DNA of 64,000 bases, from positions 1-64,000 of the forward strand of contig JAHBWG010000036.1 of the NCBI GenBank assembly GCA_019637095.1, read 5' to 3'. Both the position numbers and the translations under genes were made by a program. This document shows positions 52,141-56,769 of the stretch, one piece after another; position 1 is the stretch's first letter, and each line of letters opens with the position of its first letter. Below the pieces are notes generated by a model. The model was not told the origin of the DNA. It worked only from the letters and a program-made list of their open reading frames with translations, and ran no database searches. The DNA is from Sandaracinaceae bacterium (GTDB lineage Bacteria > Myxococcota_A > Polyangia > Polyangiales > Sandaracinaceae).

Positions 52141-55100
52141 TCAGCGCCGCCGCAGGACGCGGCGCGTGCCCCGCACCTGGCGGCGCGCCGCCGCGCGGTC
52201 GGCGCTCTTGGCGAGCGCCTCGTTCGCTCCGCCGTCGCCGTCGAGGTGCGCGGCGAGCGCCGCGATCGTCGGGAAGCGGAAGATGTCGGTGACCGTCAGC
52301 TCCTTGCCGGTCGACTCGCGGATCTCGCGGTGGGCCTGCACGGCGAGGAGCGAGTGGCCGCCGAGCTCGAAGAAGTTGTCGCTCGTGCCGACCTCGGAGA
52401 GGCCGAGGATGCTCCGCCACACGGAGGCGATCTTCTCCTCTGTCTCCCCCGCGGGCTCGACGTGCTCGTCCGCCGCGCGGCGCAGGCGCGGCGGCTCGGG
52501 CCGCGGCAGCGCCTTGCGGTCGATCTTCTTGTTCGGCGTCAGCGGCCACCGGTCCATCCGCACGAAGTGCGCGGGGACCATGAACTCCGGGAGGCTCTCG
52601 CCGAGGTGCGCGCGGAGCGCGTCGACGTCGAGCGTGTCGGCGTCGAGGATCACGTACGCGACGAGGCGCTTGTCCCCGGGGGTGTCCTCGCGCGCGAGGA
52701 CCACCGCCTCGCGCACGGCCGCGTGCTGCGCGAGGAGCGACTCGATCTCGCCGAGCTCGATGCGGTAGCCGCGGAGCTTCACCTGGTGATCGATGCGCCC
52801 GAGGAACTCGACGTGGCCGTCGTCGCGCCAGCGCACCTCGTCGCCCGTGCGGTACATGCGCGCGTCGCCTCCGGCGAACGGATCCGGCACGAAGCGCTCG
52901 GCGGTCAGCTCGGGGCGGTGGAAGTAGCCGCGCGTGACGCCCTCGCCGCCGATGTAGAGCTCACCCGGCACGCCGACGGGGACGGGCTGGCGCGCCTCGT
53001 CCAGGACGTAGAGCTGCGTGTTCGCGATCGGCGTCCCGATCGCGACGGTGCCCTCGCAGGGCGCGGCGTCCTCGGTCGACGACCAGATCGTCGTCTCCGT
53101 CGGGCCGTACATGTTGGTGATCGTCGCGCCGGTCGCGTCGCGCAGCTCCGCGGCGAGCGTCCCGGGGAACGCCTCGCCGCCGATCATCAGGTGCGAGAGC
53201 CCGCCGAGCGCGCGCCGCGCCTCGTCGTTGAGCACGAGCATGCGCGCCATCGAGGGCGTGCACTGCATGTGGGTGACGCGGTGGCGCGCGAGCTGCGCCG
53301 CGATCGAGTGGTCGGCCTCGCCGAGGGCGGCCGGCGGCGCGCTCGAGCGCTCGCGCAGCGCGTTCAAGAGCGGCAGGCTCTCGAGCACCGTCGCGGAGTC
53401 GATGCCGAAGTCGATCAGGCACGCGATCTCGTCGACGCCGATCCCGCGCACGTCCTCGACGATGCGCGCGCACGACTCGACGGTGCCGAAGAGGCCGCTG
53501 GTGTCGTAGTAGCGCTCGAACGCGTGATCGAGCAGCGCGTCGGTGTCCTCGGGCGAGAGGTTCAGGAAGTTGTCCTTGAAGGAGCGGTCCTCCTTCGCGT
53601 GCCGCTTGAAGGCGGGGAAGCTCCACGCGTGCTGCTGGATCAGCATCATCGAGCTCCTGAGGTAGCCCTTCATGGGCTCGCGCACGACCTCCTTCACCTG
53701 CGCCTCGCTCTTGCCGACGTAGGTGTGGAGCATGAGCACGACGTTGCCCTCGCCCGGGTGGCCCGCGTCCTTCCACGCCGCGCGGTAGACCTCGATCTTC
53801 GCGCGCGCCTCCTCGAGGCTTTGCCCGAGGAGGTGGGTGAGGATGCCGCCGCCGAGGCGCCCGGCGAGCTCGAACGTCTCCGGGTTGCCGGCCGCGGTGA
53901 TGAAGAACGGCAACTCCTTTTGCACCGGGCGCGGCAGCGTCACGACGTCGACGGGCCCCTTCGGGCCCTCGAAGCGGACCTGCTCCCCGCGCCAGAGGCG
54001 GCGGATGAGATCGATCTCGTCGATCATCCGCTGCTTGCTGTCGGCGAACGACTCGGGTCGCAGGATGAAGTCGTTCGGCTGCCAGCCCGCCGCGAACGAG
54101 ATGCCCACCCGGCCGTTCGAGAGGTTGTCGACGAGCGCCCACTCCTCCGCGACGCGGACGGGGTGGTGGAGCGGGTTCACGCAGCTCCCCGCGCGGAGCT
54201 GGACGTTCCTCGTGATCATCGCGAGCGCCGCGCTCGCCACGGACGGGTTCGGGTAGAGGCCCCCGAACGCGTGGAAGTGGCGCTCGGGCGTCCACACCGC
54301 GACGAAGCCGTGCTCGTCTGCGTACTTCGCCCCCTCGATGAGCAGCCGGTACTTGTCCGACGCGTGCTCGCCCTCGTCGGAGGCGAAGTAGAAGAAGCTG
54401 AAGTCGATCGAGCGGTGCTGGTACTGGCTGACCTTCGCGCCCCCGCCGCTCACGAGCGCGCGATCCTCGTCGCTCGAGAGCACGACGCAGAAGCCGCGCG
54501 CGAGGGTCCAGAAGAGCTCGAGGACCGAGATGTCGAAGCTGAGGCTCGTCACCGCGAGCCACGTGCCCGGCGGGTCGTGCGGGATCTTCGCGTCCATCCC
54601 GACGAAGAAGTTCGCGACGTTGTGGTGCTCGACCATCACGCCCTTGGGCTTGCCCGTCGAGCCGCTCGTGTAGATGAGGTACGCGAGCCGGTCGCTCGAC
54701 ACGTCCACGTCCGGGCGAGACTCCGGGCAGCCGTCGAGCGCCGCCGGATCGTCGAGGTAGAGGCGCGTCGCGTCCGAGGCGGGCAGCACGAGCTCGGTCG
54801 CCCGCTGCGTGACGATCACGGTCGCGCCGCAGTCCTCGACCATGAAGGCGACGCGGTCCGCCGGGTAGCTCGGGTCGAGCGGGACGTACGCGCCGCCGGC
54901 CTTGAGGATGCCGAGCGCGCCGACCACGAGATCGAGCGAGCGGTCGGTGCAGAGCCCGACCGGTACATCCGGACCGACGCCGCGCGCGCGGAGCGCGTGC
55001 GCGACGCGGTTGGCCCGCGCGTCGAGCTCCGCGTACGTGACCGAACGGTCCCGGTAGACGAGCGCCTTCGCGCTCGGCGTCCGGTCGACCTGCGCCTCGA

Positions 55101-56769: not shown

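Follow-up and report, generated by a model that had tools for sequence, protein, structure and literature searches.

A predicted formylating NRPS with an integrated monooxygenase and its PKS partner in an exopolysaccharide locus of a Sandaracinaceae bacterium

The stretch of DNA analysed here, referred to as the window, comprises positions 1 to 64,000 of contig JAHBWG010000036.1 of a Sandaracinaceae bacterium and carries the gene of a nonribosomal peptide synthetase (NRPS) on the minus strand (52141-56769), which is surrounded by genes for polysaccharide biosynthesis and export. The gene of a Wza-type polysaccharide export lipoprotein (PF02563; 56790-57815, minus strand) is located 20 bp upstream of the NRPS gene, and genes for a Wzy-like membrane protein (50572-52035) and a polysaccharide deacetylase fused to a GT4 glycosyltransferase (48289-50538) lie downstream on the same strand. 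The Wzy-like protein has no family match itself; however, a relative from Ruegeria with around 30% identity shows a weak, sub-threshold match to Wzy_C/O-antigen ligase. A WcaJ-type undecaprenyl-phosphate sugar transferase (58050-59459, plus strand; 541 bits, cut-off 411), a Wzz/Wzc-like chain-length protein (39493-41400, minus strand; Pfam), a Wzx-type flippase (11521-13056, plus strand; Pfam) and further glycosyltransferases are all encoded within the same 50 kb. With an initiating sugar transferase, a flippase, chain-length and export genes, the locus corresponds to a Wzx/Wzy-dependent exopolysaccharide locus, which it also resembles in its glycosyltransferase genes and possibly in its Wzy-like gene; to our knowledge, no Wzx/Wzy-type locus with a dedicated formylating NRPS and a polyketide synthase (PKS) is known. 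The window further encodes a DUF4886-like protein (47280-48275, plus strand) and its paralogue (41574-42707), which share 29% identity and one of which has a sub-threshold DUF4886 match. Since relatives of the former occur in 18 of the neighbourhoods examined, the two proteins may belong to the pathway, possibly as sugar-acyl enzymes. The gene at 9760-10317 (minus strand) is a relative of a gene annotated as 'serine acetyltransferase' in a Ruegeria cluster. At the other end of the window, the genes at 60526-63998 have syntenic homologues near the polysaccharide locus of two other genomes (G002 and G005) and, going by the look of their sequences, resemble the biotin carboxylase, carboxyltransferase and carrier of an acyl-CoA carboxylase.

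The NRPS gene is a complete open reading frame for a protein of 1542 amino acids with exact bounds, namely an ATG at 56769, preceded immediately by a GGAGG-type ribosome-binding site, an intact frame and a stop at 52141. Assigned with Pfam and NCBIfam, the protein has the order FT-C*-A(LLM)-PCP, in which FT is a formyltransferase domain, C* the C-terminal half of a condensation (C) domain, A an adenylation domain with an inserted luciferase-like monooxygenase (LLM) and PCP a peptidyl carrier domain. The FT domain (residues 1-306; 55852-56769, minus strand) matches both Formyl_trans_N and Formyl_trans_C of Pfam, and its catalytic residues N95, H97 and D133 are invariant across 54 homologues, which bears out the formyltransferase with His97 that an earlier note had recognised. 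A fold search with the AlphaFold model of the domain (pLDDT 96.5) aligned residues 7-305 with ArnA and Fmt (Z 26-28), both subdomains of which are retained. Formylating initiation modules of the LgrA (linear gramicidin) and OzmO type, which load a formylated amino acid, likewise begin with an FT, and their order, an N-terminal FT with Asn-His-Asp followed by A and PCP, is also found here. The FT of the window, however, keeps the C-terminal subdomain as in ArnA and Fmt and thereby differs from the short LgrA type; unlike the window protein, LgrA reportedly has a short FT and valine specificity and contains neither a monooxygenase nor a C*. Formylation of the loaded amino acid is predicted from these features and is well supported.

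The C* region (residues ~308-535; 55165-55848, minus strand) has no match in the window protein by Pfam alone; however, a profile built from 54 homologues aligns with solved C domains over their C-terminal half only (positions ~190-440), with E-values down to 1e-15. As a fold search with a 540-residue FT-C* model returned essentially only FT, C* was folded alone, and the resulting model (pLDDT 96.6) fits the C-terminal lobe of the C domains of TycC, LgrA and EntF (Z 15.5-17). Neither the family profile nor the fold search revealed the lobe carrying HHxxxDG, in line with the half C domain described before, and, judged by its sequence and predicted fold, the NRPS is an enzyme without a working condensation domain. 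The A domain is matched by the AMP-binding profile in two pieces, residues 557 to ~770 and 1152-1421. Its N-terminal part (54433-55101, minus strand) extends to and past motif A4 (SFDIS, residue 744), and its C-terminal part (52507-53316, minus strand) reaches from before A5 (YGPTE, at ~1220) to A10 and completes the specificity code. An FMN-dependent monooxygenase lies between these motifs (residues 790-1139; 53353-54402, minus strand) and matches the MupA/Atu3671 monooxygenase model TIGR04020 over positions 1-341 of 341 with 497 bits (cut-off 244.45), so that the split of the A domain between the SFDIS and YGPTE blocks holds as first read, as does the presence of a PCP (PP-binding; 52243-52437, minus strand), whose serine is residue 1473. 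The protein ends with an Arg-rich tail (RAAARRQ..RR..RRR; 52144-52212, minus strand). Polyangiales relatives share this architecture, as do 70 of the 80 GTDB loci sampled, a recurrence far beyond chance. These loci are the best 80 of at least 577 candidates, as ordered by their similarity to a Polyangiales query, and are not independent of one another.

Mapping of the ten specificity positions of the A domain yielded the code D-I-L-Q-M-G-M-I-W-K, which agrees with the nine residues given in the earlier note and adds the lysine. The code reads DILQ-x-GM-[IV]-WK in 84/84 full-length relatives. In a survey of 2051 A domains, every one of the four monooxygenase-containing glycine domains had the code DILQLGMIWK (PMC12283262), from which the window code deviates by one residue. 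Activation of glycine by the NRPS is thus predicted and well supported, and the same holds for a possible oxidation by the monooxygenase; the code, the FT residues and the monooxygenase family together support the glycine, N-formylation and possible oxidation that had been proposed. The type of oxidation is best discussed with the myxothiazol and melithiazol enzymes MtaG and MelG, which likewise carry an FMN monooxygenase between A4 and A5 of a glycine A domain and alpha-hydroxylate glycine (PMC10204066). SolF of the solanimycin pathway, a glycine module with an FMN monooxygenase, also produces alpha-hydroxyglycine, but its insert lies between a8 and a9, it is an elongation module and an FT is not mentioned (PMC10204066). 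MtaG and MelG work at a late stage of the assembly line, on a long chain, whereas the window protein is predicted to be a loading module; it has neither the amide release of the MtaG type nor a full C domain for an upstream chain, but starts with FT, contains half a C domain and ends with the PCP. Among solved structures, PuwE (6KET; match 1.9e-112) is closest to the monooxygenase; its oxygenase was assigned to the installation of a 2-hydroxy group on a fatty acyl chain (PMC4219810). By analogy with these enzymes, carbon hydroxylation is favoured, with glyoxylyl cleavage and nitrogen oxidation as alternatives.

In the first of these alternatives, N-formyl-alpha-hydroxyglycyl-PCP would break down into formamide and a glyoxylyl-PCP starter as in myxothiazol biosynthesis, and the FT would only supply the N-acyl group needed for oxidation. 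MtaG and MelG provide a precedent for cleavage after hydroxylation (PMC10204066), and the near-identical code of the four published monooxygenase-containing glycine domains is in favour of it (PMC12283262); however, alpha-hydroxyglycine is retained in solanimycin B and skyllamycin (PMC10204066), and it would be uneconomical to spend a formyl group only to discard it. We regard this course, which is compatible with both fates of the product discussed below, as unlikely. Formyl-hydroxamates are usually made by an FT and an N-hydroxylase, and the monooxygenase might correspondingly act on nitrogen and generate N-formyl-N-hydroxyglycyl-PCP, a hadacidin-like hydroxamate, or an oxime; the polymer would therefore carry metal-binding groups. 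The starter modules of necroxime and lobatamide resemble the window system in that an oxygenase-modified glycine primer is extended by a PKS, and the necroxime modules are proposed to convert the glycine primer into an oxime via oxygenase and dehydratase (DH)-like domains (PMC7318616). Those systems differ, however, in their trans-AT PKSs, the oxime and the large macrolactone, and the searched part of that text does not mention an FT (PMC7318616). The non-canonical DH domain of the partner PKS described below would also be compatible with oxidation at nitrogen, whereas the related domains of MtaG, MelG, SolF and PuwE are all reported to hydroxylate the alpha carbon, and this variant of the chemistry is considered rather improbable.

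The earlier note had treated the NRPS as standing alone; its reading of the domains was right, but a PKS partner and the basic tail were overlooked. A type I PKS of 2169 amino acids with the order KS-AT-KR-DH-like-ACP-TE is encoded at 14015-20524 on the minus strand, 32 kb from the NRPS gene in the window. The statement that there is no thioesterase (TE) is accordingly correct for the NRPS protein but not for the locus, as the TE is part of the PKS. Among 57 genomes searched, a PKS homologue was found in all 13 NRPS-positive relatives, two fragmented metagenome-assembled genomes contained the PKS only and 42 contained neither (Fisher p 4e-11, a value that is optimistic because the genomes are related). 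Several genomes carry the two genes side by side or separated by a few kilobases, and among the well-flanked monooxygenase-positive GTDB loci (50 from the best 80 of at least 577), the PKS is found within ~10 kb in 47 and a phosphopantetheinyl transferase in 34. No gene for the latter was recognised at the window locus; one was found elsewhere in the genome. Next to the PKS gene lies that of a GT2 glycosyltransferase (13060-14004, minus strand); six relatives and 42/80 GTDB loci (best 80 of at least 577) have its orthologue near the PKS. In Alpha- and Betaproteobacteria, the NRPS-PKS pair is accompanied by GT2 and a phosphopantetheinyl transferase. Taken together, the PKS is an obligate-looking partner of the NRPS in the same locus. 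Family members with a PKS partner share a conserved RR-x-AM-x-RRR-like pattern in the basic tail, whereas none of the four loci that lack a PKS and have a readable end (L071, L099, L101 and L115) shows the tail, which suggests that it docks the NRPS to the KS of the PKS.

The PKS retains the KS triad, the AT serine, the KR tyrosine and the serine, aspartate and histidine of the TE. Its DH-like domain (near residues 1397-1690), by contrast, deviates in two places: the HxxxGxxxxP motif is longer by one residue, which shifts this first motif, and D-x-x-x-G replaces D-x-x-x-Q/H. Most of 21 homologues keep both deviations. Because of these motifs, the domain may not be a normal dehydratase, and, with the usual Q/H missing, it is uncertain how far the product is oxidised. 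The intact KR bears on a further route, in which N-formylglycine would be extended and cyclised to a 5-substituted oxazole. Oxazolomycin and conglobatin biosynthesis follows this starter logic, with FT-A(Gly)-PCP and a subsequent PKS, and the earlier note had compared the NRPS with these pathways. However, the KR would remove the beta-keto oxygen that the oxazole needs, the monooxygenase, for which this logic has no need, is present in nearly all sampled loci (best 80 of at least 577), and no cyclodehydratase was recognised among the genes searched. The oxazole route is thus highly improbable, and the comparison gives way to the closer likeness to MtaG and MelG in the A4-A5 insert and the code.

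The polysaccharide setting, which the earlier note had found surprising, is conserved in relatives. A Wza-type gene (PF02563), of which there are two to three copies per genome, lies beside the NRPS gene in 10/12 Polyangiales genomes, and with such genes being rare, a chance neighbourhood was rejected; the background control for the glycan-gene counts was made within Polyangiales. Since glycosyltransferase matches are promiscuous, the statistics rest on export-type genes and the PKS. The idea that homologues might never be found next to polysaccharide genes fails, because the setting is conserved. Annotated plasmid records of Ruegeria conchae, Shinella zoogloeoides, Aminobacter sp. MSH1 and Parasedimentitalea marina contain the PKS and the FT-NRPS in the midst of sugar-polymer genes, namely those of sugar transferases, flippases or glycosyltransferases; a phosphopantetheinyl transferase is annotated in the records of R. 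conchae, S. zoogloeoides and Aminobacter sp. MSH1. Furthermore, Rhodobacteraceae clusters repeat the flippase, Wzy-like, DUF4886-like, glycosidase-like and acetyltransferase-like genes of the window. In the tree, a clade of 54 rows contains the window protein, its Polyangiales family and members from Rhizobiales, Rhodobacteraceae and Hydrogenophaga, and the other 29 rows include most of the loci without glycan genes.

Several further relatives were observed. The genome itself encodes a second FT-C*-A(LLM) protein with 52% identity and the code DILQHGMVWK (L039; G000:C14:2-4267), which runs off a contig end. Another NRPS gene lies in its vicinity (C14:7817-14620), and the protein clusters with a single further paralogue from Polyangiales, L052 in genome G006. 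Plasmids of Rhizobium, Sinorhizobium and Mycetohabitans, symbiosis plasmids among them, also carry FT-C* relatives, here at the start of large NRPS or NRPS/PKS genes of the ordinary kind (L155, L159, L161 and L162) with no polysaccharide genes nearby; these relatives were left aside in view of their larger NRPS genes and other settings. In a Gemmatimonadota metagenome-assembled genome (L106), the neighbours of the NRPS-PKS pair include a GDSL protein, an asparagine-synthase-like amidotransferase and a fusion of deacetylase and glycosyltransferase, an arrangement that resembles exosortase-linked exopolysaccharide loci.

The fate of the product can be seen in two ways. The NRPS-PKS pair might make a secreted free small molecule, such as a C4 acid that is oxidised or bears a formamido group, or its glycoside, and share only its regulation with the polysaccharide genes. 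Some loci with PKS and NRPS (Chloroflexota, Myxococcus/Pyxidicoccus and L074) had no glycan gene in the flanks searched, so that the line can work without a polysaccharide, the paralogue in the same genome adjoins another NRPS, and the intact TE of the PKS would be able to release a free acid. This interpretation is possible but clearly not favoured: Wza, flippase, polymerase and glycosyltransferase neighbours recur across Polyangiales, Rhodobacteraceae, Rhizobiales and Hydrogenophaga, and the Wza gene of the window lies a mere 20 bp from the NRPS gene. We rather propose, with a probability of roughly 0.55, that the NRPS acts as the loading module in an NRPS-PKS line of two proteins that serves an exopolysaccharide pathway and whose product is probably an acyl substituent of the exopolysaccharide. 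The domains, residues, code, co-occurrence and neighbourhood were observed directly; the chemical steps, above all the attachment, are what we infer from them. The A domain would load glycine onto the PCP, the FT would formylate the glycyl unit with formyl-tetrahydrofolate, and the monooxygenase would oxidise this unit, with the alpha carbon as the most likely site by analogy with MtaG, MelG and SolF. The PCP would then hand the N-formyl, oxidised glycyl unit to the KS of the PKS via the basic C-terminal tail, and the PKS would add one malonyl-type C2 unit, whose new keto group would be reduced by the KR, with dehydration by the divergent DH-like domain as a possible further step. Finally, the TE would release or transfer a roughly four-carbon formamido acyl group, which would be put on a sugar of the repeat unit before this is flipped, polymerised and exported. 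The co-conserved GT2 and the Wzx/Wzy/Wza system suggest this acceptor, whereas no dedicated acyltransferase for the attachment was identified, which counts against decoration of the polysaccharide, as does the distance of 32 kb between the PKS and NRPS genes of the window. No description of a formyltransferase/monooxygenase NRPS exopolysaccharide cluster was found in the open-access literature, which is weak evidence as an absence; decoration of a polysaccharide by an NRPS-PKS line would be a new combination of known parts.

The wider proposal, that NRPS-PKS lines of several phyla make a formylated, oxidised glycine-derived acyl substituent covalently bound to an exported polysaccharide and possibly metal-binding if N-oxidised, is in our view about evenly balanced. 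If true, it would represent a new kind of sugar decoration in organisms ranging from myxobacteria to marine Rhodobacteraceae, and genome-mining tools would miscount a widespread gene set as unknown natural-product clusters. Ruegeria conchae, Shimia abyssi and Hydrogenophaga pseudoflava are culturable hosts of the system. Should the acyl group indeed be attached to the polymer, an assembly line would here serve a structural polysaccharide instead of making a free metabolite.
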